DNA from: an uncultured Arachnia sp.
GTDB lineage: Bacteria > Actinomycetota > Actinomycetes > Propionibacteriales > Propionibacteriaceae
NCBI GenBank assembly: GCA_947493995.1
Contig: CANLTJ010000008.1
Location: 62,001 to 126,000 of the forward strand
Length of the DNA: 64,000 nucleotides
Direction: 5' to 3'
How positions within the stretch are numbered: position 1 is the stretch's first letter; each line of letters opens with the position of its first letter. A program made the position numbers and the translations under genes. This document shows positions 13,433-34,506 of this stretch, piece after piece. The notes beneath the pieces are model-generated. The model searched no databases. It had not been told where the DNA came from and saw only the letters and a program-made list of their open reading frames with translations.

Positions 13433-13525
13433 CGGCGGCGACAGGTCATGGCTGCGACGGCATCGGCATGCAGGACGCACTCGTGGGAGCGAGTGCGCAC
13501 CTGTCTGCCAGGAGGTGCCGACACC

Positions 13526-14425
13526 ATGACCACACCAACCAACACCACCAGCCCCGGCAACGACCGGACGACGGCGTTTGGTGCTGAGGACTTCACCACC
13601 GGCGAGGGCCTGCGCGCCCTGCTCAATCGCCTCGCCGAGGGCGGCGAGGATGCCTGGGTTCACGACCCGGTGGCACGCGACCTGATGGAGTTCGCCGCCG
13701 ACAAGTACCGCGCTCTCGCGAGGAAGCACAAGCTCGACACCTGGGAAGCAGTCACGGCGGCGTTCGACGCGATGCAGTACCGCTCGACCCGCGAGGCCAA
13801 CGATCCGTGGGCGATCATCACCCACGCCGTGCGGATCACCTGCGTCTACGAGGAACGCGCCCAAGGGCTGCTCTGCTCGGTGCACCAGGCCCGCCGCGCA
13901 CACGTCTCGGCGTTCCACGACCCCGAACGGTTCTCCGAACGCGACACCGCACTGGCCGACTACCATCCCGCGTTCCACACCACCGACCTGCGTCCCAGCG
14001 ACCTCGAACCGGAGCCGCGCGACGAACTCGGGTCAGCGCAGGCGTGCATGTCCGCTGGATCGGCGGCCGAGGACGCTATCGCGATGTTGTGCCTGCTCGA
14101 CTGGCCCACCGACACGGCGAGGGCCGCTGTCGAGCACGTCTGCGGCGCGTTGATGAAGGCCGGCACACGCCAGTCCGCCTACGAGGCACTGCGCCGCGAC
14201 CGACACGCGCGGGCACTGCTCGACCTGCCGCGCCGCTCCTGGGCCGCGCTGCTGAAAGCGCTCCTCGGGAACCCGCACCCGGCCTACGTGGCCACCAGCA
14301 GCGGTCGCGGCATCCTGCTCCGGCTCCTGCTGGGCGAGACCCTCGACTTGCTGCTCCGCGACGACGATCTGATCCTTGCGCTCGCACTGGCCGCTCCGAG
14401 TGGTGGAGGCGGTGAGTCGTCGTGA
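13526..14425 (+). CDS. conserved ICE hypothetical protein
   Basis: MTTPTNTTSPGNDRTTAFGAEDFTTGEGLRALL...; SD-like AGGAGG upstream. Confidence 0.65.
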   Translation: MTTPTNTTSPGNDRTTAFGAEDFTTGEGLRALLNRLAEGGEDAWVHDPVARDLMEFAADKYRALARKHKLDTWEAVTAAFDAMQYRSTREANDPWAIITHAVRITCVYEERAQGLLCSVHQARRAHVSAFHDPERFSERDTALADYHPAFHTTDLRPSDLEPEPRDELGSAQACMSAGSAAEDAIAMLCLLDWPTDTARAAVEHVCGALMKAGTRQSAYEALRRDRHARALLDLPRRSWAALLKALLGNPHPAYVATSSGRGILLRLLLGETLDLLLRDDDLILALALAAPSGGGGESS

Positions 14426-15423
14426 CCGAGCCACAGATCGGCAGCATCCAGCTCGACCGCACCGTCGATTCGATCCTCGTCGGCACCCGGCACCGCGCCG
14501 ACCTCGGAGACATCGACGCCCTCGCCGCGTCCATCGACCGCGACGGACTGCTGCAACCCGTCACGATCACCATCGACGGCGTGCTCGTGTGCGGGGCACG
14601 ACGCCTGGCCGCGATCAAGAAGCTCGGCTGGCGCACCGTCAACGTCTGGGTGCGCAGCGGCCTGTCCGACCGGCTCGGGCAGCTCCTCGCCGAGCAGGAC
14701 GACAACATGCTCCACAAGCCCTACACCCAGCTCGAAGCCGCCGGCCTCTACCGCGAGCTCAAGCAGGTCATGGCCGAAGACGCCGCCCGACGCAAGAGCG
14801 CTACCCAGTTCAGCAGCGAGAACCAGCCGGGAAACGACGGTGCGGGAAAATTTCCCGCACCGTCAGACACCCCGCGCGGACGAGCCGACGAGCAAGCCGC
14901 CGCGATGATCCCCGGCGGCGCGTCGTACAAGACCCTCGACAAGATCGGCTACCTCGAAGACATCACCAACAACCCCGCCCAGCCTGAAGCTCTGCGCGCG
15001 GAAGCTGCCGCAGGGCTGGACCGGATCGAGGCCGGCGACCCGGTGCATCCGATCTACCAAGCGATCCGCGACGCCGACACCACCGCACGGGAGCGGCGCG
15101 AGGCCGAACTCCACGCCCGCGCTGAAGCAGCCGTGGCCCACGCGAAGGCGATCAAGAAAGGCAAGCGCACCCCACCCCGTCCGTTGCCACTCGCCACCGA
15201 TGACGGCCAGCCCGTCCGCTACCCGCTGCGCGCGTTCGTCCAGACCTGGGGCGAGCTGACGAACTGGTGGACCCACTACGACGCCGACACCCTCGCCGCC
15301 GAGCTGACCGACGAGCAGTTCGAGAACTTCCTCGCCACCACCGAAGGCACCGCCCGGTTCGCTGACACACTCCGAGCCGCCCGCGAGGGCGCGGCGGAGC
15401 GGCCACGACTCCGCGCCCTCTGA
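14422..15423 (+). CDS. ParB/Spo0J-like nuclease-domain protein
   Basis: SILVGTRHRADLGDIDALAASIDRDGLLQPVTITIDGVLVCGARRLAAIKKLGWRTVNVWV: ParB N-terminal domain. Confidence 0.85.
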   Translation: MTEPQIGSIQLDRTVDSILVGTRHRADLGDIDALAASIDRDGLLQPVTITIDGVLVCGARRLAAIKKLGWRTVNVWVRSGLSDRLGQLLAEQDDNMLHKPYTQLEAAGLYRELKQVMAEDAARRKSATQFSSENQPGNDGAGKFPAPSDTPRGRADEQAAAMIPGGASYKTLDKIGYLEDITNNPAQPEALRAEAAAGLDRIEAGDPVHPIYQAIRDADTTARERREAELHARAEAAVAHAKAIKKGKRTPPRPLPLATDDGQPVRYPLRAFVQTWGELTNWWTHYDADTLAAELTDEQFENFLATTEGTARFADTLRAAREGAAERPRLRAL

Positions 15424-15459
15424 CCACGGGCACAGGTGCCGAGTGCGCACCTGCTCGGC

Positions 15460-16152
15460 ATGAGCCCTGCGCCTGCTGATCCTCGGAACCGCCGCCGACT
15501 CGTCGCCCTCATTGCCGCCGGCATCGTCCTGCTGCTCCTGGCCGGCGTCGGCGTCTACGGACTCCTCACCGGCCCCCGCAGCAACACCAGCCCCGATCCA
15601 GACTCGGAGCCCGGCTTGGTCACGACGGCACCCCCGACCGTGGCCCCGAGCACGCCTCGGCCACCGCAGGTTCCAGTGGTCCCGCGTTCGGCCAGTCCCG
15701 TGACCTTCGCGCATGGCGTCGCTGCCACGCTGTTCGCCTGGGACACCGCTTCGGGGCTGTGGCCGCTGGACTACACCTCGGCGATCCTCGCGGTCGGTGA
15801 CCCCAGCCGGGACGAGCAAGCAGGGCTGGCCTCCGACGTAGCCGCGTACCTACCGACCCGGGACGCCTGGATCGAGCTGCGGCAATATGCCACCCGCCAG
15901 CACCTCACCATCGACACCGCGTACGTCCCCGACGCCTGGGCCGACGCCGTAGCGCAGGCACGACCGGGGCAGCTCGCAGCTGGCACGACGGCCGTGACGA
16001 TCGAGGGCTCTCGCCACCGTGCCGGGGTCTGGAACGGGCAGCCGGTCACCAGCGAGCATCCGGTCGCGTTCACCGTGTTCGTCGTCTGCGCCCCGACCTA
16101 TCCGACCTGCCATCTGCTGCGGCTGTCGCAGCTCGACAACCCGCTGCGCTGA
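15460..16152 (+). CDS. single-TM conjugation-associated hypothetical protein
   Basis: MSPAPADPRNRRRLVALIAAGIVLLLLAGVGVYGLLTG then a Pro/Thr-rich linker. Confidence 0.6.
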   Translation: MSPAPADPRNRRRLVALIAAGIVLLLLAGVGVYGLLTGPRSNTSPDPDSEPGLVTTAPPTVAPSTPRPPQVPVVPRSASPVTFAHGVAATLFAWDTASGLWPLDYTSAILAVGDPSRDEQAGLASDVAAYLPTRDAWIELRQYATRQHLTIDTAYVPDAWADAVAQARPGQLAAGTTAVTIEGSRHRAGVWNGQPVTSEHPVAFTVFVVCAPTYPTCHLLRLSQLDNPLR

Positions 16153-16165
16153 AGGGGTTGGCGTC

Positions 16166-17779
16166 GTGTTCCGCAAAGCCGCCATCGCAGCCCTGGCCCT
16201 GCTGTTCTTCGCACCCGCCGCAGCACTCCTCGGGGTCGGGGTGCTGATGAACCCTGCCGCTGCCTACTGCGCCACCCCTGCCGGAACGGTGAACCTTGGC
16301 CCGATCCCGGACTCGCTCACCGTCACCACCGCGAACGGCGAGACCTTCACGCTGAATCGTCAGCAGCTCACGCACGCGGCAACGATCATCTCCGTCGGCA
16401 ACGGCATCACCGACGTGGGCAAGCCGGGAATCAAGATCGCGCTGATGGCCGCGCTCACCGAGTCCACGCTGCGGATGCTCACCAACACCGGCACCTACCC
16501 GGAGTCGGCGAACTACCCGAACGACGGAAACGGTGGCGACCACGACTCCCTCGGCCTGTTCCAGATGCGCCCGCAGTCCGGGTGGGGGTCGGTCGCAGAG
16601 TTGATGGACCCGCAGTATCAGGCGCGAGCGTTCTTCGGCGGGCCGACCGGCCCGAACTACCCCTCGCCGCGTGGCCTGCTCGACGTCCCCGGCTGGCAAC
16701 AGATGGACCCCGGCGAAGCCGCCCAAGCCGTCGAAGTGTCCGCCTACCCTGACCGCTACCGCAACTACGCGCCCGTGGCCGACAGCATCCTCGCCACCCT
16801 CACCAACGGCGGCAGCGCTGCTGCTGGTGGCGTTGGTGGCCCGGCGATTTCGTCGTCGCGGGTGGTGTTCCCGCTGCCCGAGGGCACCTGGGTGCTGACC
16901 TCGCCGTTCGGGATGCGGGTGCACCCGATCACGGGCGAACGGAAGATGCACACCGGCACCGACTTCGCAGCCTCCGACAGTACGGCGATCCTCGCCGCCG
17001 CTGACGGCGCCGTGACCGTCGCGGAGTTCTCCGGCGGGTACGGCGGACTCATCGTCATCGAGCACACCATCGATGGCAAGACCCTGGCGACCGCGTACGC
17101 GCACATGTGGCAGAGCGGCATCCATGTCCGCGCCGGGGACCGCGTGAGCGCGGGGCAACACATCGGCGATGTCGGCTCCTCGGGCATGAGCACCGGCGCA
17201 CATCTGCACTTCGAGGTGAGGCTCGGCGGCACCAACGGCGAGGCCATCGACGCCGCCGCCTGGCTCAACGAGCATGGTGCCGCGAACCTGCCGACGGCGA
17301 CCAGCGGATCACCCGCCGCCTGCAACAACACCACTGCGGGCACGCCGACCGGTGTCGATGGAGCCCCCGACCGGCTCGTCGACGATCCCACCAGCTCGGG
17401 CAAGATCACCGCCCGCATGCTCCACCTCTACCAGCAGACCCTCGCCGCGTTCCCCGACACCGGCTGGGGCTGCTACTCACCGCGCCCCGGCACCAAGTCC
17501 GAGCATCCACTCGGCAGGGCGTGCGACATCACCTTCGGCAACCGGATCGGTCAGCGACCCACCCCGGTACAGCTCGACGCCGGCTGGAAGGTCACCAACT
17601 GGATGAAGGACAACGCCGACGTGCTCGGCGTCGAGTACCTGATCTGGCAAGGCCAAATCTGGTCCCTCGCCCGCGACACAGAGGGGTGGCGACCCTACAA
17701 AGGCGGGGGCATGCACGACCCCGTCTCCATCACCGGAGGCCACTTCGACCACCTCCACGTCACAGTCAAGGCAAACTAG
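16166..17779 (+). CDS. M23 family metallopeptidase of the conjugation apparatus
   Basis: GTG at 16166. SPFGMRVHPITGERKMHTGTDFAAS..TAYAHMWQ..DRVSAGQHIGDVGSSGMSTGAHLHFEVRL: M23 HxxxD/HxH. Confidence 0.88.
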   Translation: MFRKAAIAALALLFFAPAAALLGVGVLMNPAAAYCATPAGTVNLGPIPDSLTVTTANGETFTLNRQQLTHAATIISVGNGITDVGKPGIKIALMAALTESTLRMLTNTGTYPESANYPNDGNGGDHDSLGLFQMRPQSGWGSVAELMDPQYQARAFFGGPTGPNYPSPRGLLDVPGWQQMDPGEAAQAVEVSAYPDRYRNYAPVADSILATLTNGGSAAAGGVGGPAISSSRVVFPLPEGTWVLTSPFGMRVHPITGERKMHTGTDFAASDSTAILAAADGAVTVAEFSGGYGGLIVIEHTIDGKTLATAYAHMWQSGIHVRAGDRVSAGQHIGDVGSSGMSTGAHLHFEVRLGGTNGEAIDAAAWLNEHGAANLPTATSGSPAACNNTTAGTPTGVDGAPDRLVDDPTSSGKITARMLHLYQQTLAAFPDTGWGCYSPRPGTKSEHPLGRACDITFGNRIGQRPTPVQLDAGWKVTNWMKDNADVLGVEYLIWQGQIWSLARDTEGWRPYKGGGMHDPVSITGGHFDHLHVTVKAN

Positions 17780-17785
17780 CGATTA

Positions 17786-17941
17786 TTACATTAGATGTAA
17801 TCGCTAGCGGCCGGGATCAAGCGGATTCCCTGGTCAGGCAAGGGTATCAGTGGACCGCGACGAGAGCCGCGGAAGCAGCTCCTGGCCATGGGAAACGCAG
17901 TGCTGCTTACATTAGATGTACTTTTCTTACATTAGATGTAA
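17786..17941. repeat. three copies of the palindrome TTACATTAGATGTAA upstream of the tyrosine recombinase
   Basis: TTACATTAGATGTAA at 17786-17800; TTACATTAGATGTA at 17907-17920 and TTACATTAGATGTAA at 17927-17941, the last two spaced exactly 20 bp. Confidence 0.9.
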
Positions 17942-17951
17942 GACTGTCGGG

Positions 17952-19076
17952 GTGGACTTTGAGGACGGGAACCGGCCTGGATCGGTGACGGCGCTGCGGC
18001 CGGGCAACGTGGCGTTGCTGCGTCCGGCGGAGCAGGTCTTCGATGACATGCTCACCGGCTGGTCGGCGCAGCAGTCGTCGCGGATGCTGAACCCGAAGAC
18101 GATCCAGGCACGGCTGGCGCAGGTACGCCGGTTCGCCGGGTTCTGCGGGAACCTGCCGTGGGAGTGGACGCCGGCCGACGTCGAGGAGTGGACGACCGAG
18201 CTGGTTTCCGGCGACAAGCCGTGCTCGCACGGCACGATCCGCTCCTATCAGAACGCTGTCGCGTTGTTCTGCTACTTCCTCACCGACTGCCGCTACGGGT
18301 GGATCGAGCGGTGCGAGGAGCTGTTCGGCACGCACCCGGTGCAGGTCTGCCATGAGTGGAATACCGCGATTCACACTGGCGATCACGAGGCACGCCCGGC
18401 GGTGCGACCCCTGTCGCGGAGCGAGGTGCAGACCTTCTTCGACTACGCCGATGATCGCGTCGACCGGGCCCGCACGCGGGGGAAGAAGGGCTGGAAGTCG
18501 GTGTTCCGCGACGCGACGCTGTTCAAGATGATCTACGCCTTCGGGCTGCGCCGTCGCGAGGTCGGGATGCTGGACCTGCACGACTTCACCCGCAACCCGA
18601 CCGCGACCGAGTTCGGCCGGTTCGGGGTCTGCAATGTCCGCTGGGCCAAGGCCAGCCGCGGTTCCCAACCCCGGCGGCGGGCGGTGCTGGCGGTGTTCGA
18701 CTGGACCCGCCCGGTGATCGAGGAGTACGTCACCGATGTGCTGCCTCTGTTCGACGTCGCTGATGCCGCAATGCTCCGGCCGACCGAACGACAGTCACGG
18801 ATCACGGGCAGCTACATCGGGATGCGATTCGCCGAGTACCGCGACGACCTCGGCTTCGACGTCGCGCTGCACCCGCACTGTCTGCGGCACTCGTATGTGA
18901 CGCATCTGATCGAGGACGGCTTCGACCCGCTGTTCGTCCAGCAGCAGGTCGGGCACCGGTGGGGCTCGACCACCGCCCTCTACACCGGCGTGTCCGGTGA
19001 CTACCGCAACCGCACCCTGCGTCGCGCCCTGGACGCGGCGTTCGTCCCGCCCGCTATCGAGGAAAGCTGGAGCTGA
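17952..19076 (+). CDS. tyrosine recombinase/integrase
   Basis: FGLRRREVGMLDL, HPHCLRHSYVTHLIEDGFDPLFVQQQVGHRWGSTTALYTGV: R..HxxR..H..Y. GTG 17952 preferred; alternative ATG 17916 lies inside a repeat. Confidence 0.85.
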   Translation: MDFEDGNRPGSVTALRPGNVALLRPAEQVFDDMLTGWSAQQSSRMLNPKTIQARLAQVRRFAGFCGNLPWEWTPADVEEWTTELVSGDKPCSHGTIRSYQNAVALFCYFLTDCRYGWIERCEELFGTHPVQVCHEWNTAIHTGDHEARPAVRPLSRSEVQTFFDYADDRVDRARTRGKKGWKSVFRDATLFKMIYAFGLRRREVGMLDLHDFTRNPTATEFGRFGVCNVRWAKASRGSQPRRRAVLAVFDWTRPVIEEYVTDVLPLFDVADAAMLRPTERQSRITGSYIGMRFAEYRDDLGFDVALHPHCLRHSYVTHLIEDGFDPLFVQQQVGHRWGSTTALYTGVSGDYRNRTLRRALDAAFVPPAIEESWS

Positions 19077-19414
19077 TGACGAAAACCGTCGCCTACCACT
19101 GGCACCTGCGCAAGGTGATGAACGAGCACGGCATGAACGCCACCACCGATCTGGTGCCATTGTTGGCCGAGCGGGGCGTGGTGATGACCTCCACCCAGGT
19201 CTACCGGATCGTGGTCGGCGAGCCCGAGCGGTTGAACATGCGGCTACTCGCCGCGCTCTGCGACATCTTCGACGTCACCCCGAACGACCTGATCGAGCCC
19301 TACGTCGCCACCAACTCGCGACGCGGACGCAAGACCGGCACCACCGGCGCCACGCCGTCGAAGCCGAGCAAGAGCCGTCCAACCCGTGCTGTGATCAAGC
19401 CTGCCGGGGACTGA
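19076..19414 (+). CDS. XRE-family regulator
   Basis: MNATTDLVPLLAERGVVMTSTQVYRIVVGEPERLNMRLLAALCDIFDVTPNDLIEPY: Cro/C1-type HTH. ATG overlaps the preceding TGA. Confidence 0.8.
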   Translation: MTKTVAYHWHLRKVMNEHGMNATTDLVPLLAERGVVMTSTQVYRIVVGEPERLNMRLLAALCDIFDVTPNDLIEPYVATNSRRGRKTGTTGATPSKPSKSRPTRAVIKPAGD

Positions 19415-19423
19415 CCGGCCGGG

Positions 19424-21087
19424 ATGGCGAACACGATCATCCACGGCACCTGTTTCCGCTGCGGACGGATGAAGAACCTGCGCTGGAACCACACCCTGGA
19501 CCGAGGCGAATGCCGGGCCTGCCGCGCCCGCCGCTCACAGCAAGACACCTGCACCGGCTGCGGGAAACAGCGCCGGGTCAACGCCCGAACCGGCGATGGT
19601 GGCGCGGTCTGCGTGACCTGCTACGCCCGCACCCGCACCGCCAACGATGCCTGCGACGAATGCGGCAGCATCGGCCCGCTGGCCACCCGAGCCGGCGGCA
19701 AGGGCGACGGGTCGCGGAACCTGTGCCCGCGGTGCTACCGCAACCCCAGGCGGACCTGCGGCATCTGCGGACGGCTCAAACGGGTCGCGCTGAAAGCCAC
19801 CGGCGCCGCCCCGGATGTCTGCCCGACCTGCTACCAAGCGCCGGTCACCGACTGCTCGGTCTGCGGCCAGCAGGCGCTCGGCCGCCGGACCACGAACCAC
19901 GGCCGGCCACGCTGCTTCGCCTGCCAAGCCGCCCAGCAGATCGACGCCGCACTCACCAGTCCCGACGGCACGATCCGCCACGAGCTCAAACCCGTCCGCG
20001 ACGCCCTGACCGAACTCCACCAACCCCGATCGCTGCTGACCAACTGGCACAATCTGTCCAGCCTGCACCTGCTGACCGACATCGCCCAAGGCCAGGTTGA
20101 CCTGTCGCACGATGCTCTCGACGCCCGGCCGCAGGTGTTCTCGGTGACCTACCTGCGGGCCATGCTCGTCGCTGCCCGAGCGCTCCCACCACGCGATGAG
20201 AACGCCGCCCGACTGCGCCGCCACGCTGCCGAAGCCGTCACCGACATCACCGACCCCGAACTGCGCGGCGTGCTGTCCCGCTACGCCCGCTGGCACATCG
20301 TCGGCCGCGCCAAGACCGACCGCCACGGCCACCTCACCGCACACGTCGCGGCACGCTGCCGCAGCGACATCGACACCGCCCACGCCTTCCTCGACTACCT
20401 CACCGGTCTTGGCCATGACCTCGATGACTGCCCGCAAACCTGCGTCGACGCCTGGCTCACCACGAGCCGCAGCGCACGCCTGAGCTTCGTCCGCTGGCTC
20501 AAACGAGGCGGCTACCTTCCCCAGGCGCGACTACCCGATCCCGTCGCGCAGAAGGACCCCAGCCACGACATCGATCCCGAAAGCCAACTTGTCCTCACTC
20601 GCCGACTCCTGTACGACCCGGACAGCGCCAGCGTCGAGGACCGCGCCGCAGCCTGCCTGATCCTGCTCTACGCCCAGCCCGCCGCGAAGATCGCCGCCTC
20701 ACCACCGATGACATCGAGTTCCGCGACGGCGACACCTACCTCGCCCTCGGCCCCGAACCCCTGCTGCTCATCCCGCCCCTGGACGCCCTGATCACGGCGC
20801 TGCCAGTCGCCAAGCCGTTTGGCACCGCGAGCACTCTGGCCGATACCCGGTGGCTGTTCACCGGCAAGAACTCCGGCACCCACCTGCACCCGACCTCCCT
20901 GATGCACCGGATGAACCGGCGCGGCATCGTCACCCGCGCCAGCCGGAACACCGCGCTGTTGCACCTAGCCTCCACGACGCCGCCCGCCGTGTTCGCCACC
21001 CTCATCGGCATCCACGTCAACACCGCCACCCGGTGGGCCGCACTCACCGGCTCGGCCTGGAACAGCTACACCACCCTGCCGCGCTGA
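19424..21087 (+). pseudogene. zinc-ribbon recombinase-like protein, frameshifted near 20,697
   Basis: Multiple CxxC pairs (CFRCGRMK, CRACRARR, CTGCGKQ, CDECGS, CPRCYR, CGICGRLK, CPTCYQ, CSVCGQQ, CFACQA). Frame 1 ends at 20791; adding one base at ~20,697 restores ILLYAQPAAKIAALTTDDIEFRDGDTYLALGPEPLLLIPPLDALITAL...LTGSAWNSYTTLPR* to 21087. Confidence 0.75.
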
Positions 21088-21251
21088 CAAACGATTATCA
21101 CCCGACTCGCCGAGGTCGGCAGACCCTCTGGAGCCTCACCCGACGCATCTGCCAGCCGTGAACGCTCGATTCGTTGCACACCGCCCGCAGCTCTGACGCG
21201 AGAGCTATTCCGTGACTTCGAACATCGGACCCTGCTGGTGCGAGTCGGTGC

Positions 21252-22183: not shown

Positions 22184-22258
22184 GATTGCCTTCCCTTCCT
22201 GCTCCCTCCAATGTAAGCCTAATCGCCGACACGCCGGTGACGGTGTTTAAGATCGATC

Positions 22259-22645: not shown

Positions 22646-22754
22646 ACGGGCCCGACTCGAAACGTCATCCCCGCTCTCCGGTCAGGCCAAGGGAGGCTCC
22701 GCCCACCTCACGGGCATGGATTTCGAACGCTGCGAATACTTGCCTACGCCGGTT

Positions 22755-22923
22755 AACTAGCAATTATTACGTTAGATATAGTCACTGCGCCCGGGATTAC
22801 GTGGTTCCTTGGTCAGGCAAGGGTATTAGCGGACGCCTTATCTAAATCCACATCGCCACGGCGACCTGCTGGGACGAACTGACCGGTTCCGCCTGGAACA
22901 ACTACGCCATCAACCGCCGCTGA
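22755..22923 (+). mobile_element. internally deleted relic of a second recombinase element
   Basis: 22755-22834 matches 17774-17855 (aactagc.attattac.ttagat.ta...ggtcaggcaagggtat.ag.ggac). It is followed by the reading IATATCWDELTGSAWNNYAINRR*, matching the 3' end of the zinc-ribbon gene (VNTATRWAALTGSAWNSYTTLPR*). Confidence 0.75.
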
Positions 22924-22944
22924 CGAAGCGCGGCACGGTTAGGC

Positions 22945-23437: not shown

Positions 23438-23656
23438 TATCGCTACCGGCGATCAAACTAAGCCTCGGCCCGCTCTTCGCTGTCCGGCAGATTGTCCCGA
23501 ACTGTCGGCTCCAACCGGTCCCAATGCCGAGCCTTCGGCGAGCCCACACCTGCCGCCGTTGGGAGCCGGTCCGCGACGGCATCAAGCAGGACACGCGACC
23601 TACGATGATCCACGTTCGCGTCACAGTGCGCGGCCCGGCTGCGCACCTGGCAGGTA

Positions 23657-23701
23657 TGGATTTCGAGCACTTCGAATACTTGCGTCCGCCGATCGGGTGA
23701 T
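23657..23701 (+). promoter_or_regulatory. 14-aa leader peptide ORF MDFEHFEYLRPPIG upstream of DUF6112-like gene
   Basis: ATG..TGA of 15 codons; conserved copy MDFERCEYLPTPVN* at 22716-22760 has the same length and codon-aligned similarity. Confidence 0.6.
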
Positions 23702-23706
23702 CGACC

Positions 23707-23973
23707 ATGGGTGTCTTCCCCGACTTCGACGGGCTCGGCGGCATCGGCGACCTCCGCGCCGTGGTCGGCGCGCTCCTGACTTTCGTCCTCATCATCGCCG
23801 TCCTCATGCTCATCGTCTCCGCGATCGTCTGGGCGATCGCGACGGCCCACGGCAACTACGCGACCGCCAGCAAAGGCCGCATCGGTGTCCTCGTCTCCGT
23901 CGGCGCGGCCGTCCTCGCCGGAGGCGGCGTGGCCTGGATGAACTGGCTACTCACAGTCGGTTCAAGTTTGTAG
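23707..23973 (+). CDS. DUF6112-like small conjugation membrane protein (copy 1)
   Basis: Two TM segments; LRAVVGALLTFVLIIAVLMLIVSAIVWAIATAHGNYATASKGRIGVLVSVGAAVLAGG is a paralogue of 25019-25339. Confidence 0.75.
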   Translation: MGVFPDFDGLGGIGDLRAVVGALLTFVLIIAVLMLIVSAIVWAIATAHGNYATASKGRIGVLVSVGAAVLAGGGVAWMNWLLTVGSSL

Positions 23974-24854: not shown

Positions 24855-25018
24855 GTTCCAGCAACCTCTCGATTCGGCGGTCCCGTGCGGGCGAGCGACG
24901 CACAGATACTCCAAGGCTACGGGCGGCCACCGACGGGGATGGCGACGAGCGCGCACCTGTCGCGTGTACCCCGTCTGCGAGTCCGCGGGCGGGCCGCCCG
25001 CCGCCAAGGAGACCTACC

Positions 25019-25339
25019 GTGTTCCATCTTTTCGCCAACGTCATGTCCGCGCCGCTGCTGGTGCCGATGGACATCAACATCGACCCCAACACCAACGGCC
25101 TGCCGGGGATCAACCAGCTGCGCACCATCGTCGGCGCGGTGATGACCATCGGCCTGATCCTCAGCGTGCTCGCGCTGATCGTGTCCGCGATCGTGTGGGG
25201 CTTCGGCGCGAACTCCTCCAACCCGCACCTCGCCTCGCGCGGGAAGATCGGCGTTCTCGTCTGCTGCGGCGCGGCGGTGATCTGCGGCGCGAGCGTGACG
25301 CTCATCAACTTCTTCTGGAACGTCGGCCAGTCCGTCTGA
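25019..25339 (+). CDS. DUF6112-like small conjugation membrane protein (copy 2)
   Basis: INQLRTIVGAVMTIGLILSVLALIVSAIVWGFGANSSNPHLASRGKIGVLVCCGAAVICGASV. Confidence 0.78.
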   Translation: MFHLFANVMSAPLLVPMDINIDPNTNGLPGINQLRTIVGAVMTIGLILSVLALIVSAIVWGFGANSSNPHLASRGKIGVLVCCGAAVICGASVTLINFFWNVGQSV

Positions 25340-26746: not shown

Positions 26747-26749
26747 ACG

Positions 26750-28219
26750 ATGAGCAGCACGAACAACGACCGGCCCACCGCGGGCGAACTCGTGCCGGTG
26801 AAGTTCTCCCGCCTCACCCGCCGCGGTGTCCTCCTCGGCCTGTCGCTGACCCAGCTCATCACGCTCGCCATCGGCGGAGCCACGCTCATCGGAGCGTTCT
26901 ACGCCGGCGGCGGGATGCTGCTCGCCTACACCGCCCCCATCTGGGTACTGGCCGCCGCGCTGACCTGGATACCGATCGCAAGCCGGCCCATCGTGGAGTG
27001 GCTTCCCATCGCCTGCTGGTGGCTGTGGCGCACCACCGGCGGGCAGTTGGTGTACCGGCGCAGGATCGTCGTCCCGCGCCCCGTCGGAACCCTCGCACTG
27101 CCCGGCGACATGGCCCGACTACGCGAGTACACCGACCCCGACACCAGCGCAGGGATGATCCACGACCCCCACGCCGCCACCTTGACCGTCGTGTGCGAAG
27201 TCACCCATCCCGCGTTCGTGCTCCTCGATCCCGGCGAACAGGAACGCCGCGTCAGCTCCTGGGGCCGCGTCCTGGCCACCGTCTGCCGCTCCGGGCGAAT
27301 CGCCACTCTTCAGGTCTTGGAGCGCACGCTGCCGGACTCTGGCACCGGACTGGCCGAATGGTGGGCCACCCACGGCACCCCGGACGGATCATGGGCGGCG
27401 GACACCTACGCAGAACTCATCGACCGTGCCGGACCCGCCGGCGAACGCCACGCCACCACTCTCTCGATGTCACTGGACATGAAGACCAGTGCCCGTCAGA
27501 TCAGGACCGCCGGCGGCGGGATACGCGGGGCCGCCGCCGTGCTGCGCCAAGAGATGAACACCCTCGTCGCCGCGCTCCGCTCCGCCGACCTCTCGCCCTC
27601 GGGATGGCTAACACCAGGGCAGATCGCAGTGATGCTGCGCTCCGCCTACGACCCCGCCATCGCCGCCACCCTGGAACGCCACGGGAGGCTCGGCCAGTCC
27701 CTCGCGACCGCCGGGCCGGTTGCAGTCACCGAGACCTGGGGCAAGCTGCGAACCGACTCCGCTCACCACGCAGTGCTCTGGGTCAGCGAGTGGCCGCGGT
27801 CACTGGTGTATCCGGGGTTCCTGTCGCCCGTGTTGCTGTCCACCGGCATCCAGCGGTCGTTCTCGCTGATCTGCACCCCGATGCGCTCCGATGCCGCTGC
27901 CCGCGACATCCGCAAGAAGAAGGTCGAGCACATCTCCGACCAGGCCCAGCGCGCGAAGATCGGCCAGATCGAAGACGCATCCCAGACCGCCGAATACCAC
28001 GACGTGCTCCAACAAGAAGCCGACCTCACCGCCGGACACGGCATCCTCCGCTACACCGGCCTCATCGCCGTCTCCGCACCCACCGTCGAAGAACTCGACG
28101 CCGCCGTCGCCGCGATTGAGCAGGCCGCGATCCAAGCCTCGTGCGAGACCCGGTTGCTCGTCGGCCAGCAAGCAGCCGCGTTCACAGCCGCCGCGCTTCC
28201 GCTCTGCCGGCGCGTGTGA
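26750..28219 (+). CDS. SCO6880-family conjugation protein
   Basis: VPVKFSRLTRRGVLLGLSLTQLITLAIGGATL..WKRTTGG-like region (WWLWRTTGGQLVYRRRI), two N-terminal TMs. Confidence 0.8.
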   Translation: MSSTNNDRPTAGELVPVKFSRLTRRGVLLGLSLTQLITLAIGGATLIGAFYAGGGMLLAYTAPIWVLAAALTWIPIASRPIVEWLPIACWWLWRTTGGQLVYRRRIVVPRPVGTLALPGDMARLREYTDPDTSAGMIHDPHAATLTVVCEVTHPAFVLLDPGEQERRVSSWGRVLATVCRSGRIATLQVLERTLPDSGTGLAEWWATHGTPDGSWAADTYAELIDRAGPAGERHATTLSMSLDMKTSARQIRTAGGGIRGAAAVLRQEMNTLVAALRSADLSPSGWLTPGQIAVMLRSAYDPAIAATLERHGRLGQSLATAGPVAVTETWGKLRTDSAHHAVLWVSEWPRSLVYPGFLSPVLLSTGIQRSFSLICTPMRSDAAARDIRKKKVEHISDQAQRAKIGQIEDASQTAEYHDVLQQEADLTAGHGILRYTGLIAVSAPTVEELDAAVAAIEQAAIQASCETRLLVGQQAAAFTAAALPLCRRV

Positions 28220-28295
28220 CCGCACCCACCGCTGGGCAACGATCGTCGGCATCGACTTGGGGTGGATGCCGGGTGAAGTGCGAGAGACTGGGGGC

Positions 28296-29156
28296 GTGAG
28301 CGAGATCAACTTTGCCCGGTACCGGGCCTATGTCGACGCACGGGTCGAGGCGAACAACGCCATGATCGCGCTCCTTGCAGGCTCTCGGCTGGCCGCGCAC
28401 AGTCTCCAGCTGCACAGCGGGTCTCCTCATCAGCTCCCCGGACTTTTTCCGGCAGTGAGCGACATTGACCGTTTCAACCTGTTACCGGATCGAGCTTCGC
28501 AGCTCCTACTCGACGCCGATGCGCACCTCGCAGCCGTGGCGATTCCGTACGCACTGGCTGTCTATGAGGCTTTCGTTAAAGATGCAATCACCATGCTGGG
28601 CGACGCAGGCTACGCAGTGTCACAGGCTTGGGGTGCCTTGAATGCGGGGCGCATGCACAAGACCTTCTTCGACGCGGCTGGCGTCGCGGAACCAGCTGAT
28701 GTGATCCCTCTCTTCCACGTGTTGCGTTGTGTTCGGAATGCCCAGATTCACCACGCCGGCCAGGTGACAACTGAAGTGACCGAGGTACTGGACTCCTTGA
28801 CTGATGCGCAGCGCGAGCGATGGGAGCGACTGACGATGGCTCCGCTCGATTCGATGATGAGGGACGGAAAGCTGCACTTCACAATCGGCCATTTGATCGC
28901 TGCGTTTGCGGTCACGAAGGAGGGTGCACGGCGACTCAACGAGGTTCTGGGGCAGAAACTGAGCAGAGAGACCTGGGCCGGGATCGCCGTCGTCGACTTC
29001 GCCGAATCTGCTGAGCACCCGCGCAACAGCAGGCAGTGGAAGCGTGGACTCTTGGGGTTCGCGCGATTCCATTACCTTGGGGGGCTAAGTCTGAGCGCGG
29101 AAGAACTCGAACTCGCGGCACGACAGTCGGGCTACTGGACGGCGACATCGTGGTGA
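28296..29156 (+). CDS. HEPN-like protein (candidate RNase/defence cargo)
   Basis: YALAVYEAFVKDAITML...VIPLFHVLRCVRNAQIHHAG: RNxxxH HEPN signature. GTG 28296 chosen; ATG 28266 alternative. Confidence 0.55.
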   Translation: MSEINFARYRAYVDARVEANNAMIALLAGSRLAAHSLQLHSGSPHQLPGLFPAVSDIDRFNLLPDRASQLLLDADAHLAAVAIPYALAVYEAFVKDAITMLGDAGYAVSQAWGALNAGRMHKTFFDAAGVAEPADVIPLFHVLRCVRNAQIHHAGQVTTEVTEVLDSLTDAQRERWERLTMAPLDSMMRDGKLHFTIGHLIAAFAVTKEGARRLNEVLGQKLSRETWAGIAVVDFAESAEHPRNSRQWKRGLLGFARFHYLGGLSLSAEELELAARQSGYWTATSW

Positions 29157-29169
29157 AAAGAACACGGGG

Positions 29170-29263
29170 GCTCTGTACCCATTGAGCTACATCCGGCTTT
29201 GCCGGAGCCAGGAGTCGAACCTGGGTCTCCACTGTTTTTGTGCGAATTGAGGTTGTGACCCTC
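29170..29263 (-). other. tRNA-like elements in circularly permuted order
   Basis: Minus-strand order: anticodon-arm-like GAGGGTCACAACCTC (29249-29263), T arm CCAGG-TTCGACT-CCTGG (29208-29224), 3' acceptor CTCCGGC (29201-29207), AAA, 5' acceptor GCCGGA(T)G (29190-29197), D arm GTAGCTCAATGGGTACAGAGC (29170-29190). Confidence 0.6.
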
Positions 29264-29353
29264 TAGCCCATGAGTGGCATCCGCTATGTAAGAAGACACT
29301 CTACCACGGACTTGGGTGCGCACCTCCTCGTCACACGGCACCAGGAGGTCACC

Positions 29354-30184
29354 ATGCCCACGTTCTTCGATTCGACTGCTGACGCCGCCGAGGCATCCGA
29401 GGCGCTGCGGGGGCTGGCCCACGCGAGCCGGGGTTTCGATCAGCCCGCCGAGATGTACGGGGTGATCGGTGATCTGTCCTCGGGGATGCGCTCGCTGCGG
29501 CAGGCGCTCGACCAGATCGCCGATGTTCATGAGCGGAAGGCCGCTCACGCGTTCAACGACGCTGGCGACCACGAGGCGGGAGTGCGCGACGCGCTCGCCA
29601 CTGCGGAGGAGTTGCGTCAGGCTGCGAACCTCGTCGACCGGGCGTACGACCGGCTCGCGGAAGGCTTCATCGCCGCCGGGCGGATCGCCTGGCATCCTGA
29701 GCCCGCCGTCGAGGAGTCCGCGCCGTCGCGGTGGGTCAGCGTGGTGTTCCTCCAGGGCGAGGAGGCCGACCGGCCGTTGCGTATCCTCGGCGAACTGGGG
29801 CATGTCGATGCGGTGGACTTCCTCGCGCAGTGGGACTACGGCGACGAGACCACGCAGGCCGCGCTGGAGAACGGGTACGTCTACGACGAACCCGGCGAGG
29901 GCACCAACGACCGGGTGGCGCTCTCGGGCGACTACGCGCTCGTCGTCAACCCGCACGTCGGCTACGTCTCGCTGCTGCGCCGCTACACCGAACCGGAGGC
30001 CGAGCTCCCGGATACCGAACAAGTCACGTCCGAGCCGGTGCAGGGTGGGCCGGAGTTGCTGGTGTCGTACTCGTCGCCGGGCGCTCCGGAGCGGGCCGAG
30101 CTGCCGACGGCGAAGCGGGATGGGTCGTGGTTCGAGCCGGCGAAGATCACGGCGGTCAAGCAGTCGCGGGGGCTGGTGCTGTGA
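29354..30184 (+). CDS. conserved ICE hypothetical protein
   Basis: MPTFFDSTADAAEASEALRGLAHASRGF...; strong SD AGGAGGT. Confidence 0.65.
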   Translation: MPTFFDSTADAAEASEALRGLAHASRGFDQPAEMYGVIGDLSSGMRSLRQALDQIADVHERKAAHAFNDAGDHEAGVRDALATAEELRQAANLVDRAYDRLAEGFIAAGRIAWHPEPAVEESAPSRWVSVVFLQGEEADRPLRILGELGHVDAVDFLAQWDYGDETTQAALENGYVYDEPGEGTNDRVALSGDYALVVNPHVGYVSLLRRYTEPEAELPDTEQVTSEPVQGGPELLVSYSSPGAPERAELPTAKRDGSWFEPAKITAVKQSRGLVL

Positions 30185-31665
30185 CCGAGGATCGTGCGCG
30201 GCTGCACACCGCCGTTCTGGTGGCACCGTCGAAGGAGCGGCGGAAGCTCCGCAAGCAGCGCCGCAAAGCCGAGGCCAGGCTCCACGCCGAGCAGCGGAAG
30301 ACGGCGCTTGCCGCCGCGAAGGCGAAGGCTGAGGTGGAACGTGCCGAGCGTCGCGCGACTGTCTACCTGCCGAGGGCCGGCGAGCCCGGTGCTGCGCGGC
30401 TGCGTACTCCGGGCCGGTTCCATCTGACGCGGCATCAGGACACGTCGGCGACGTTGGCGGGCGCGTACCCGTTCGTCGCCGAGGGCGGTCTCGGTGCCGA
30501 TGGCGTGTTCGTCGGCCAAGACCTCTACTCGGGCGGGAGCTTCGTCTACGACCCGTGGGTGCTCTACGCGCGCGGCATCATCACCGCACCCAACGTGGTG
30601 CTGGCCGGGATCGTCGGCTCCGGCAAATCCTCGCTGGCCAAGTCCCTCTACACGCGGTCGCTACCGTTCGGGCGGCGCGTATACGTGCCCGGCGATCCAA
30701 AGGGCGAACACACCGCCGTCGCCAACGCCGTCGGCGGACGCGCCATCGTCCTCGGCCACGGCCTCAACACTCGCCTGAATCCACTCGACGAAGGCCGCCG
30801 CCCCAGCGGCCTCTCGGACGAGCAATGGGCCTCGACCGTCGCCGCGCGACGCCGTGACCTGATCGGCGCACTCGCGGAGACCGTGCTCGCGCGCGGCTTG
30901 TCGCCGTTGGAGCACACGGCGATCGACATCGCCCTGACCCAGACCGTGCGGGAGAACGACGTGCCGATCCTGCCGATGGTCGTTGACCGCATCCTCGCCC
31001 CGAGCGCGGATGCCGACGGCAGACTGGCCGAGGACGGCAGGCTCGTCGGGCACGCGCTGCGCCGCCTCGTCGCCGGTGACCTGGCCGGGCTGTTCGACGG
31101 ACCTTCAACGGTCGCATTCGACCCATCGTTGCCGATGATCTCACTCGACCTCTCACGGGTCACCGAGAACTCGACACTCATCTCGGTGTTGATGACCTGC
31201 TCGTCGGCGTGGATGGAGTCCGCGCTGCTCGACCCGAACGGCGGGCAGCGGTGGGTGATCTACGACGAGGCCTGGCGGCTCATGTCCCATCCCGCACTGC
31301 TGCGGCGAATGGATGCGCACTGGCGACTCGCCAGGCACTACGGGATCGCGAACATGCTGATCTTCCACAAGCTCACCGACCTCGACAACGTGGGCGACCA
31401 AGGCTCCGCCATGCGCTCCCTGGCCAACTCACTGCTCGCGAACGCCGAGACGCGGATCGTGTACCGGCAAGAGTCCGACCAGCTCGGGCCGACCGCAACC
31501 GCCCTCGGTCTGACCGGGACGGAGCAGCAGCTCTTGCCGAACCTCGGCGTCGGACAAGGCCTGTGGCGGATCAAGGCCAGGAGCTTCGTCTGCCAACACC
31601 AGCTCCACCCCGACGAACTCGCCCTGTTCGACACCAGCAGCCGCGCTGCGGGAGGCCACCAATGA
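30181..31665 (+). CDS. VirB4/TraC-like conjugation ATPase
   Basis: VVLAGIVGSGKSSLAKSLYTR (Walker A), QRWVIYDEAWRLM (Walker B), GIANMLIFHKLTDL. GTG overlaps the preceding TGA. Confidence 0.85.
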   Translation: MTEDRARLHTAVLVAPSKERRKLRKQRRKAEARLHAEQRKTALAAAKAKAEVERAERRATVYLPRAGEPGAARLRTPGRFHLTRHQDTSATLAGAYPFVAEGGLGADGVFVGQDLYSGGSFVYDPWVLYARGIITAPNVVLAGIVGSGKSSLAKSLYTRSLPFGRRVYVPGDPKGEHTAVANAVGGRAIVLGHGLNTRLNPLDEGRRPSGLSDEQWASTVAARRRDLIGALAETVLARGLSPLEHTAIDIALTQTVRENDVPILPMVVDRILAPSADADGRLAEDGRLVGHALRRLVAGDLAGLFDGPSTVAFDPSLPMISLDLSRVTENSTLISVLMTCSSAWMESALLDPNGGQRWVIYDEAWRLMSHPALLRRMDAHWRLARHYGIANMLIFHKLTDLDNVGDQGSAMRSLANSLLANAETRIVYRQESDQLGPTATALGLTGTEQQLLPNLGVGQGLWRIKARSFVCQHQLHPDELALFDTSSRAAGGHQ

Positions 31666-32210
31666 ACCTCACCAGCCCACGCCGATCTACCCCGAACGAC
31701 GAAGATGCGATAGCTCCCGTTGAGTTGCCGCACGTCCTCGTCACCGTCGCAGAAGACGGCACCCTCACCGCGACGGTCGATGGAACACCGTTCGAGGCAC
31801 AGGAGACGACCGAGTGGACGCGGGCGACGTTCGGGACGCTCATGGATGCCATCACCAAGGACCGCACCATCGCAGTCCGGGTCGAGGTGCGCGAGAGCGA
31901 CGGCAGCGTCTTCACCGACATCCTCCGCACCCGGAAGCCACGACGGGCAGCGGCCCCGCCCGAGACCCCGGCACCAGAGTCACGTCGAAGTCGCCACGCC
32001 CGACGGATGCCGCGCTTGGCTGAGGTCACCGCAGGCGGGTTCGTGCCCGGCGAGGATGTCGCCGTCGCGACGATCGTCTCCCACACCGACGTCACCGGAA
32101 CCGGGGAGGCCCGTGCACTGATCGACCTCGACGAGCTACCCGACGGCACACACGAGGTGATCCTGTTCGGGCACATCTCGGGCACGCTCGCGGTGCGGCG
32201 GCTGACATGA
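31662..32210 (+). CDS. ICE hypothetical protein
   Basis: MNLTSPRRSTPNDEDAIAPVELPHVLVTVAEDGTLTATVDG...; overlaps both neighbours. Confidence 0.6.
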   Translation: MNLTSPRRSTPNDEDAIAPVELPHVLVTVAEDGTLTATVDGTPFEAQETTEWTRATFGTLMDAITKDRTIAVRVEVRESDGSVFTDILRTRKPRRAAAPPETPAPESRRSRHARRMPRLAEVTAGGFVPGEDVAVATIVSHTDVTGTGEARALIDLDELPDGTHEVILFGHISGTLAVRRLT

Positions 32211-33985
32211 ACCAGCGGCAGGCCGGTGGTATGGGCGACGAGCTCACCAACGCCGCCCTGATTGGCCTGATCGGCACGTTCGGGATCGCTCTCGTCCTCC
32301 GCGTCGCTGGTAGCGTCGCCGCGTTCCTCACAGGTACACCGCAGCCCGAAGCTGGCGTAGCGGCGGGGCTCGCCGTGCTGTTCAACCCCGGCGACCCTGC
32401 GACCGCGCTCGGTGCCGACGGGCTCAACCCAGTCGTCTACTGGCTCGTAAGCACGGCACTGCTCGGCGGACTCGCCGCCGGGATCGTCTGGGTCTGGATA
32501 GTGCTACGGCGACACACGCGGAAGACCGAGACCGACCCGCACCGACTCGCGGGGGTCGCGACCAGCCACGAGGTTAAGACCGCCGCCGCCGCGAAGGCGC
32601 TACTGCACCGCGCGGCCACGCTGCGGCCCTCCTTGAAGTCGCCCGAATCGCAGGATGTCGGCTACCTGCTCGGTGCCAGTCGTGGCACGAAGGTCTGGGC
32701 ATCGGTCGAAGACTCGATTCTGCTGATCGGCCCGCCCCGCTCAGGCAAGGGCCTGCACGTCGTCATCAACGCGATCCTCGACGCACCCGGCGCGGTCGTC
32801 ACGACCAGCACGAGGCCCGACAACCTTACCGCGACCCTCCGCGCCCGACGCCGCAAAGGCGGGCCCGTCGCCGTGTTCGACCCCCAGCACCTCGCCGAAG
32901 GCATCCCCGCAGGGCTGCGCTGGTCACCCATTCGCGGCTGCGACGACCCGCTGACCGCGATGATCCGCGCCAACGGACTCGCCGCCGCTACCGGCCTCAG
33001 CGCCGGCGGGGTCGAGTCTGGAGGGTTCTGGGAGGGCAAGACCCGCACCGCACTCCAGTCGCTGCTGCACGCGGCCGCGCTGGACGGCCGCCAGCCTGCC
33101 GAGCTGTTCAGGTGGACCCTCGACCCCAGCGCCGCGTCCGAAGCCGTCGCGATCCTCAACTCCCACCCGAACGCGGCGATGGGCTGGGACGACTCCCTTG
33201 GCGCGATGATCGACGCCGACCCCAAGACCCGCGACAGCATTTGGCAAGGCGTCTCCCTTGCACTCGCCGCACTGGCCGACCCGCGCGTGCTCGATGCCGT
33301 CACGCCAGGCCCGCACGAGCACTTCGACCCCGAGACCTTCCTCACCGAGCAAGGCACCCTCTACCTGCTCGCCACCGGTGCCGGAGCCGGAGCCTCCGCA
33401 TCGCTGGTCGCGGCGTTCGTTGAAGACCTCATCGAAACCGCGCGACGGCTCGCCGCCCGCTCACCCGGAGCGCGGCTCGACCCACCACTGTTGCTCGCAC
33501 TCGACGAGATCGGGAACCTCGCCCCTCTGCCGTCACTGCCGACGCTCATGGCCGAAGGCGGTGGCACTGGGATCACGACCATGCCGGTCTTGCAGTCCCT
33601 CGCCCAGGCTCGCGATCGGTGGAGCGAGCACCAGGCCGGAGCGATCTGGGACGCCAGCATCGTCAAGATCATCCTCGGCGGCGCATCGAACAGCCGCGAC
33701 CTCCAAGACCTCTCCACGCTCATCGGCGAACGCGACGAGTACACCGACAGCGTGACCCTCGGCGACCACGGCACCCGCTCCAACCAGCGCTCCATCCGCC
33801 GTGTCCCGATCCTGCCGCCAGACCGCATCCGCACCCTGCCCTTCGGCACCGGCATCACGATGCTGCGCTCCGCGCCACCCATCGTCACCGATCTGCGCGC
33901 CTGGCCCACCCGGCCCGACGCCGCGCAACTCCGCAGCGACCGCGACGAACTCGAAGCGCTTCTGCGCCACCGTCCCGCCTCCTGA
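32207..33985 (+). CDS. type IV coupling protein (VirD4/TraG/TraD-like)
   Basis: SILLIGPPRSGKGLHVVINAILDAPGAVVTTSTRPDN; LLLALDEIGNLAPLPSLPTLMAEGGGTGITTMPVLQSLAQAR. Confidence 0.88.
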   Translation: MNQRQAGGMGDELTNAALIGLIGTFGIALVLRVAGSVAAFLTGTPQPEAGVAAGLAVLFNPGDPATALGADGLNPVVYWLVSTALLGGLAAGIVWVWIVLRRHTRKTETDPHRLAGVATSHEVKTAAAAKALLHRAATLRPSLKSPESQDVGYLLGASRGTKVWASVEDSILLIGPPRSGKGLHVVINAILDAPGAVVTTSTRPDNLTATLRARRRKGGPVAVFDPQHLAEGIPAGLRWSPIRGCDDPLTAMIRANGLAAATGLSAGGVESGGFWEGKTRTALQSLLHAAALDGRQPAELFRWTLDPSAASEAVAILNSHPNAAMGWDDSLGAMIDADPKTRDSIWQGVSLALAALADPRVLDAVTPGPHEHFDPETFLTEQGTLYLLATGAGAGASASLVAAFVEDLIETARRLAARSPGARLDPPLLLALDEIGNLAPLPSLPTLMAEGGGTGITTMPVLQSLAQARDRWSEHQAGAIWDASIVKIILGGASNSRDLQDLSTLIGERDEYTDSVTLGDHGTRSNQRSIRRVPILPPDRIRTLPFGTGITMLRSAPPIVTDLRAWPTRPDAAQLRSDRDELEALLRHRPAS

Positions 33986-34065
33986 CGACGCTTGGAAGCT
34001 CCAGTGCACCTGCCTGACAGAGCGACCCACACGCAGTTGGTCGCCCGAGTCAGGAGGAGGCCATC

Positions 34066-34506
34066 ATGGCCATTCACACCCAGGAATCGCTGTCAGGCTT
34101 CATCGCTTCTGAGCCGTTGCTCACCGAGACTGCAAAGGGAGACGCCAGGTTCTTCGCCCGTATCGGCAAGGAGCACTTCCGCCGCGAGGACGACGGCTCG
34201 TTCACGCAGACCGAGACGACCTACCACCACTTGGTGATGTTCGGGCGTTCCGCTGAGCACGCGCACGCGAGCTTCGCCCAGGGCGACAACTTCGTCGCCG
34301 AGGGCTACACGCGGCCGGTCAACTACGAGCGCAACGGTCAGGCAATCGAGGGCGAAGAGTTCGTCGCCAAGAAGATCGGCCACGACGCCGCGCGAACCCG
34401 CTACGAGGTCGACCGGACGCCGCGCAATGGAGTGGGCCGGGACGCAGCAACGTACGAGCCGACGCAGCGAGCAGCGACCGCGGCGCACGCCCCGGTCAGC
34501 ATGTGA
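34066..34506 (+). CDS. ssb: single-stranded DNA-binding protein (Ssb-like)
   Basis: LSGFIASEPLLTETAKGDARFFARIGKEHF..YHHLVMFGRSAEHAHASFAQGDNFVAEGYTR. Confidence 0.75.
   Translation: MAIHTQESLSGFIASEPLLTETAKGDARFFARIGKEHFRREDDGSFTQTETTYHHLVMFGRSAEHAHASFAQGDNFVAEGYTRPVNYERNGQAIEGEEFVAKKIGHDAARTRYEVDRTPRNGVGRDAATYEPTQRAATAAHAPVSM

Follow-up and report, generated by a model that had tools for sequence, protein, structure and literature searches.

A putative element-private promoter in the transfer region of an actinobacterial conjugative element and a candidate sigma-like reader

Little is known about the control of transfer in actinobacterial conjugative elements of the T4SS type. The window, a 64-kb stretch of DNA analyzed here in full, contains such an element. 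An SCO6880-family VirB4-like protein, DUF6112 and a VirD4-like coupling protein are all present, and the element is an actinobacterial SCO6880/DUF6112-type T4SS element. A short sequence recurs in the leaders of its genes, which raises the question of what this sequence does and which factor reads it. The preliminary description regarded it as a cis-regulatory element (operator, promoter or RNA regulator) acting across the whole element. Six copies had been listed, preceding the genes that start at 13526, 15460, 23707, 25019, 29354 and 34066, and all six were found again within a base or two. The features of the transfer region outside the cargo edge are as follows.

12965..12990, + strand: possible promoter for the gene starting at 13028 (17.8 bits; conserved in 18 unique loci)
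13485..13510, + strand: putative promoter copy of the sigma-like gene (exact pattern, 20.5 bits; predicted start 13510)
13526..14425, + strand: core gene for the proposed sigma-like factor, with its own promoter copy (homologue in the 44 related loci that include this region)
14422..15423, + strand: ParB-like gene (PHROGs ParB-like, 9.7e-20; Pfam ParB_N weak), whose first 4 bases are shared with the sigma-like gene
15435..15460, + strand: putative promoter copy (21.1 bits; predicted to be leaderless, with the start on the first base of the ATG, 15460)
15460..16152, + strand: conserved gene whose product has a hydrophobic segment at the N terminus (homologues in 43 loci), heading an operon with an M23 peptidase gene
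24941..24966, + strand: putative promoter copy for 25019 (16.0 bits; predicted start 24966)
25019..25339, + strand: second DUF6112 gene (Pfam PF19607, 2.9e-23), heading an operon with SCO6881- and SCO6880-family genes (NCBIfam NF047967, NF042935)
29308..29333, + strand: putative promoter copy for 29354 (18.1 bits; predicted start 29333)
29354..30184, + strand: conserved gene (homologues in 78 loci), heading an operon with a VirB4-like ATPase (30181-31665; NCBIfam VirB4-like) and the VirD4-like coupling protein (32207-33985; Pfam TraG-D_C)
33994..34019, + strand: putative promoter copy for 34066 (24.1 bits; predicted start 34019)
34066..34506, + strand: single-strand-binding protein gene (Pfam SSB, 2.2e-6)

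The alignment of 147 de-duplicated leaders gave the full motif GG-N8-GYGCACCTG-N3-G-N-YR. Counted from the predicted start, Y(-1)R(+1), GG occupies -25/-24 and GYGCACCTG occupies -15 to -7, with an A at -11; information is confined to about -26 to +5. The conservation is 86/78% for GG, 97% for G-15, 98% for Y-14, 88% for G-13 and 97% for C-12, and the initiator is conserved at 95% (Y-1) and 94% (R+1). Since the ACCT core served to collect the instances, its 100% conservation is partly by construction, while that of GG, GYG and YR is not. A -35 element 16-18 bases upstream of the -10 position is absent, the segment from -71 to -27 carrying no information, and the usual -10 sequence TANNNT is also absent from the motif.

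In two leader groups the conserved YR is the start codon itself (35 of 42 leaders). ATG is found exactly at +1 in 22 of the 25 de-duplicated leaders of 15460, and among 17 leaders of 23707 from cargo-bearing loci, 12 have ATG and one has GTG at this position (13/17). Because of this coincidence, the YR behaves as a transcription start, and the corresponding mRNAs would be leaderless. The motif is read here as a promoter lacking a -35 box, with starts predicted from sequence, because its conservation spans about -26 to +5, the leaderless ATG lies at the predicted start, the strand bias is strict, and no shared RNA structure is required as an explanation. This supports the proposal of a cis-regulatory element and reduces its three options to a promoter.

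A frequency equal to the GC-rich background had been named as a result that would refute the proposal. The bare 11-mer with up to two mismatches does equal the background (47 matches in the window versus 46.9 expected) and shows no enrichment there, so the claim of enrichment rests on the extended pattern, which is above background. The exact GCGCACCTG is present 4 times in the window versus 1.6 expected. The comparatively derived GGN8GYGCACCTN6YR is present 5 times versus 0.22 expected; none of 100 shuffles reached 5 matches, and all 5 are on the + strand in leaders of the element. A weight matrix built from 105 sites, all of them taken from diverged elements, and applied with a threshold of at least 13 bits, detected 8 sites in the window, all on the + strand and inside the element, with the A of ACCT at 12979, 13499, 15449, 22705, 23645, 24955, 29322 and 34008. 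With the same matrix and threshold, the minus strand of the window has no site and simulated windows have 0 to 2. A degenerate copy suspected at 22701 is among the 8 sites, at 16.1 bits. Another, considered possible near 10286, is present and weak with this matrix:

10276..10301, + strand: weak copy before an ArdC-like gene (10.3 bits)

The ArdC-like homologue in a distant locus (L138) is preceded by a site of 19.4 bits. The site at 12965..12990 is ambiguous as a promoter for 13028, because it is inside the 3' end of the gene starting at 12381 and its bases also encode a conserved Ala-His-Leu.

The preliminary description had also made its proposal dependent on conservation in related ICEs, and this is observed. 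In 80 related elements, the GCACCT core precedes nearly every operon-head gene and almost no internal genes. It is found within 100 bases upstream of 13526 in 15 of 16 loci, of 15460 in 36 of 42, of 25019 in 45 of 51, of 29354 in 60 of 78 and of 34066 in 53 of 56, and upstream of most internal coupled genes in only 0-3 of 38-79 loci. Over the 80 loci, sites of at least 14 bits number 317 in the forward and 23 in the reverse orientation, and of the 299 forward sites that reach 15 bits, about 95% directly precede conserved genes. Together with the enrichment of the full motif, this conservation supports a cis-regulatory element used across the whole element. The motif is also specific to it: in a pattern search of the window's own genome, no gene front outside the element uses the promoter, and the 9 off-element matches show no excess over a reversed-pattern control and sit in long open frames. 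The same promoter recurs in elements whose hosts represent many families, including some outside the window's order.

Distant elements with homologues of 13526 also have sites at the same gene fronts. In 19 SCO6880-type elements without 13526, sites are not above background; the transfer genes of these elements are also more diverged, and this co-occurrence is confounded by ancestry. One element (G230) keeps two sites while 13526 is absent, which is explained by truncation of its upstream half. No distant relatives were found in viral contigs.

The most likely reader of the promoter is the product of 13526, proposed to be a very divergent sigma-like protein encoded by the element. It has no sequence match in Pfam, NCBIfam, PHROGs or PDB, and no match of 13526 or its relatives to the sigma70 region 2 or 4 families was found in Pfam, NCBIfam or PHROGs. 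A profile-profile comparison with sigma factors gave no similarity but had little power, the query alignment being narrow and the sigma set badly extracted from loci that were not oriented. The N-terminal domain is modeled by AlphaFold2 with pLDDT 90, and three Foldseek searches point to a resemblance to sigma region 2, with best E-values of 0.2 to 1.1, none individually significant. Against PDB, sigma factors account for about 45 of 50 among the matches listed for the full model and about 30 of 50 among those listed for the N-terminal domain alone. Against BFVD, phage sigma factors are at the top (best probability 0.93). The C-terminal domain is not recognized as region 4. Among the core proteins tested, 13526 is the only one with a sigma-like fold prediction.

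The preferred reading, with a probability of roughly 0.7, is that a promoter private to the element is read by the divergent sigma-like product of 13526, which switches the transfer operons together. The promoter would be restricted to this family of conjugative elements of the T4SS type, and every operon in the transfer region would be driven by a copy of its own. For 15460, and likewise for the ORF at the cargo edge ahead of 23707, the A of the ATG would be the first transcribed base and the mRNA leaderless; the other operons would have a 5' UTR after the predicted start. The N-terminal domain of the 13526 product may melt the CACCTG region, and its C-terminal helical domain may contact DNA further upstream, perhaps at GG. 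Since 13526 has the same promoter, its expression could form a positive-feedback switch that turns on all transfer operons together. The motif itself, its positions, strand bias, restriction to the element, conservation and leaderless geometry are direct observations; initiation at these sites, recognition by the 13526 product and the switch are inferred from them.

The cargo edge has its own set of features.

22691..22716, + strand: diverged promoter copy (16.1 bits), followed by ATG and a leader-like ORF
23631..23656, + strand: putative promoter copy at the downstream edge of the cargo (18.6 bits; ATG of a short ORF at +1)
23656..23700, + strand: short, predicted leaderless ORF MDFEHFEYLRPPIG, with 6 bases between its stop and the ATG of 23707
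23707..23973, + strand: DUF6112 gene for a small membrane protein of the transfer system (Pfam PF19607, 8.7e-45)

The site before 23707 is present in 17 of 21 loci with cargo versus 0 of 43 without, and is seen only where cargo lies between 23707 and the peptidase gene. The short ORF probably restores translational coupling. The diverged copy at 22691..22716 is left behind beside a Tn554-like remnant. A boundary signal of cargo insertion was rejected as the main idea, as the site also occurs without inserted cargo; in leaders of 29354 without cargo, it lies soon after the upstream stop codon.

A promoter of the same geometry could instead be read by a host sigma factor, either an alternative one or the housekeeping one with an activator, or by the ParB-like or HTH protein of the element, or could need one of these two as activator, 13526 being otherwise employed. 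In favor of this, 13526 is linked to the site only indirectly, the ParB-like gene 14422 overlaps 13526, the product of 12381 carries an HTH, and the host genome has genes for about a dozen sigma70-family proteins. This explanation is nevertheless considered unlikely. The promoter is kept across many host families, yet is unused at gene fronts of its own genome outside the element, it has neither the usual -10 TANNNT nor a -35, and only 13526 among the tested core proteins has a sigma-like fold prediction.

An operator for a repressor or activator of the element, beside a poorly recognizable promoter, is quite improbable. ParB-like regulators of transfer genes exist in plasmids, and a KorB-like action of the ParB-like protein would be an example; the GTGCAC and GTGCGCAC cores are partly palindromic. 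However, the matrix is asymmetric and the site keeps one orientation (317 forward versus 23 reverse sites), in place of the dyad symmetry and free orientation of a palindromic operator. The distance to the start codon is exact in leaderless genes, and the separate promoter needed nearby is hard to place, as nothing else is conserved within 60 bases. Less probable still is a site acting at the RNA level, through a processive antitermination leader with an ops-like pause, a small-RNA target or translational control. Antitermination is used in other conjugative elements, namely canT of Tn916 and conAn of pLS20 (PMC11658703). Here, the site sits in operon leaders, several of which form hairpins downstream, and the variable positions of the 147-leader alignment are mostly C/T or A/G. 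Conservation stops a few bases past the YR, however, and RNA pairing and an ops-like pause were set aside for this reason. The gene groups share no downstream structure, the conserved GG would be outside the transcript in leaderless genes, and initiation accounts better for the exact distance to the ATG. Rfam families are absent from the window except for a tRNA.

If the promoter reading with 13526 as its reader is right, a single promoter pattern is enough to predict, throughout an element family, where the transfer operons and many of the start sites lie; it also serves as a marker for finding the elements and the cargo genes drawn into the regulon, and points to a new family of divergent sigma-like proteins. 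A promoter specificity of its own would account for the ability of one element to function in many host families without relying on their regulators. A literature search found no paper on an ICE-encoded sigma factor for transfer genes, and an element-encoded divergent sigma factor with its own regulon is likely to be new. A more specific version is offered tentatively, at somewhat less than even odds: a sigma family unrecognizable by sequence, encoded by a core gene, would read a -24/-12 promoter convergent with that of sigma54 and lacking a -35 box, and would constitute a self-reinforcing transfer switch. It would cover the element family in several families of Actinobacteria and beyond the order of the window, some mRNAs being leaderless.

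The promoter resembles the -24/-12 promoters of sigma54 (RpoN) in having GG at -25/-24 and GC at -13/-12, separated by the same 10 bases, and in lacking a -35 box. It differs in having GYGCACCTG where these have TTGCW, and the candidate reader is not RpoN-like. RpoN (PF04552) is absent from the window's own genome and was found in 4 control genomes, and a sigma54 system was therefore rejected. The N-terminal domain, as predicted, may resemble region 2 of alternative and phage factors of the sigma70 family (SigI, RpoS, WhiG, T4 gp55 and others), and the A at -11 and the YR initiator are also similar to sigma70-family promoters. Promoters of the gp55 type also lack a -35 box. However, 13526 has no detectable sequence similarity to this family, and GG at -25/-24 replaces the -35 element.

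Conjugative transposons of Clostridioides difficile carry sigma-like proteins, and the study describing them asked whether these act on promoters inside the element (PMC3158075), a question on which the present element would bear. Those proteins are encoded by accessory genes and were recognized by their HTH for -35 (PMC3158075), whereas 13526 belongs to the core genes and comes with a defined set of putative promoters in the transfer region. In the SetCD regulon of SXT/R391, one element-encoded master regulator likewise serves several transfer operons (PMC4344509). SetCD are activators (PMC4344509), while here a dedicated promoter and a proposed sigma-like factor would take this role.

The GCACCT-core sequence ahead of the operon-head genes of the conjugative element is probably a promoter (probability about 0.88), judging from its sequence features and distribution. 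All six copies in leaders of ICE genes, which the preliminary description had proposed as an element-wide cis-regulatory element, were found where it placed them. The bare 11-mer with at most two mismatches occurs 47 times in the window versus 46.9 times in shuffled sequence, and thus the initial impression of recurrence could have been chance. The extended pattern GGN8GYGCACCTN6YR has 5 window matches versus 0.22 expected. When a matrix was trained on 105 sites taken solely from diverged elements, leaving out the window and its near relatives, it recognized 8 sites in the window, all on the + strand and all inside the element. One high-scoring site, at 12965-12990, lies within the 3' end of a DUF2637/HTH gene and 49 bases ahead of 13028. 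It is kept in the unique loci seen, and may be a promoter or a by-product of conserved Ala-His-Leu codons.

The more telling test was the comparison with related elements. Related loci were collected with the SCO6880-family protein (26750-28219) as query against a single genome of each species, which yielded 80 loci from many actinobacterial genera with 80 to 100% identity in this protein. Window genes were mapped onto these loci, and GCACCT was looked for within 100 bases upstream of the homologues.

Loci with GCACCT upstream of the homologue of each window gene (named by its start)
Genes at operon fronts
13526, proposed sigma-like protein: 15 of 16
15460: 36 of 42
25019, DUF6112: 45 of 51
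29354: 60 of 78
34066, SSB: 53 of 56
Genes directly behind their neighbour (examples)
25364: 0 of 67
16166: 0 of 39
30181, VirB4-like ATPase: 1 of 77
26750, SCO6880 family: 2 of 79

Conservation in related ICEs is borne out by a clear split: operon-front genes carry GCACCT, whereas it is almost missing upstream of directly following genes. Outside the motif, the leaders of related loci are very dissimilar. Over the 80 loci, sites of at least 14 bits number 317 forward versus 23 reverse, and of the 299 forward sites reaching 15 bits or more, about 95% are immediately upstream of conserved genes.

In 147 de-duplicated leaders, information is confined to about -26 to +5 of a conserved pyrimidine-purine step, with the consensus GG at -25/-24, GYGCACCTG at -15 to -7, G at -3, Y at -1, and R at +1; no conserved -35 box was seen in this set. 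The leaders were gathered via the ACCT core, and its conservation is partly by construction, while GG, GYG, and YR were unselected. R is the A of ATG in 22 of 25 leaders of 15460, and ATG or GTG begins at R in 13 of 17 leaders of 23707 with cargo. Leaderless mRNAs are common in Actinobacteria, and a promoter yielding them would be expected to show the constant core-to-ATG spacing and the junctional Y|R seen here.

The DUF6112 genes 23707-23973 and 25019-25339 are paralogues, usually near each other in related elements; in the window, other DNA is inserted between them. A Tn554-like three-gene set (17780-21087) lies behind the M23 peptidase gene. Another element of this kind has apparently left a remnant at 22740-22925, where the left-end sequence recurs together with the third gene's 3' end. 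Each insertion is located at the 3' end of either the peptidase gene or the short leader ORF. Usually 23707 is coupled to the upstream peptidase gene, and the site is present in none of 43 such loci; where other DNA separates the two genes (21 loci), it is present in 17. Of the remaining four, one is a paralogue assigned by mistake, and three carry ACCT in a weaker version, with ATG at or beside that position. Apart from a working promoter, little would account for the recurrence of the site wherever cargo splits the operon. In cargo-bearing loci, a short ORF begins at the predicted promoter and stops just upstream of 23707, an arrangement that would re-establish translational coupling. In the related locus L083, a short ORF (MTQHSASAFTLRPTPPYDIEGR...) outside the core set follows a 23-bit site at 13846 whose +1 coincides exactly with an ATG; the ORF is possibly a cargo gene captured by the regulon.

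The extended pattern has 14 matches in the host genome, 5 in the element and 9 elsewhere. Because the latter do not exceed the reversed-pattern control (11) and all 9 fall in long open frames, the promoter looks private to the element.

Given a promoter, its likeliest reader is the 13526 product, a fairly probable assignment. The gene is among the core genes common to site-bearing elements, its homologue is found in related loci that hold the region, and its own copy of the site suggests positive autoregulation: the product would bind and initiate at the site and feed back on its own gene. The product matched no family, a profile comparison with sigma factors (a weak test) gave no link, and its sequence does not place it in the sigma70 family, although its fold might. 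AlphaFold2 modeled the full length poorly (pLDDT 57) and the N-domain confidently (pLDDT 90). Among the Foldseek matches listed, sigma factors account for about 45 of 50 with the full model and about 30 of 50 with the N-domain (SigH, sigmaA domain 2, RpoS region 2, SigI1, WhiG, sigma32, SigE, and T4 gp55 included), and a viral library returned phage sigma factors (best probability 0.93); no E-value is significant alone. The sigma-like reading comes from the agreement of searches in two libraries, and the PDB matches are not mutually independent since sigma factors are homologous.

A profile search of 397 genomes of the phylum recognized five distant 13526 homologues (41 to 51% identical). In four of these loci (L134, L136, L137, and L138) the site lies behind the homologue of 14422 (ParB-like), at the place of the 15460 gene, and five fronts in L138 carry sites, among them the front of the ArdC-like gene; in L135, the fifth locus, sites occur at other operon heads. 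Sites are not above background in 19 SCO6880-type elements without 13526, but the transfer genes of these elements are also more distantly related, and the co-occurrence is thus confounded by ancestry. A truncated element, G230, retains two sites.

Two further features were noticed.
35325-35490 (+): a strong predicted multi-branched RNA fold (-73.6 kcal/mol, z -3.4) of about 165 bases, which separates the large serine recombinase gene from the last small gene and has TAGAAT in front of it
37151-37223 (-): tRNA gene contained in the serine recombinase open frame (35497-37380), in its 3' part, perhaps marking the element end or attachment site
The former matched no Rfam family. A recognisable version occupies the equivalent position in 34 sequences, the window among them; it has unpaired stretches that do not vary, and in seven base pairs both partners have changed. 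Apparently this is a structured RNA not described before.

Sigma54 promoters share the GG-N10-GC geometry of the site, but RpoN is absent from the host genome, and a sigma54 system was rejected. No description of an ICE-encoded sigma factor for transfer genes was found in the literature searched. Elements of C. difficile carry sigma-like accessory genes, and whether these act on the element was left as a question (PMC3158075). Tn916 uses antitermination (PMC11658703), and SXT uses the SetCD activators (PMC4344509).
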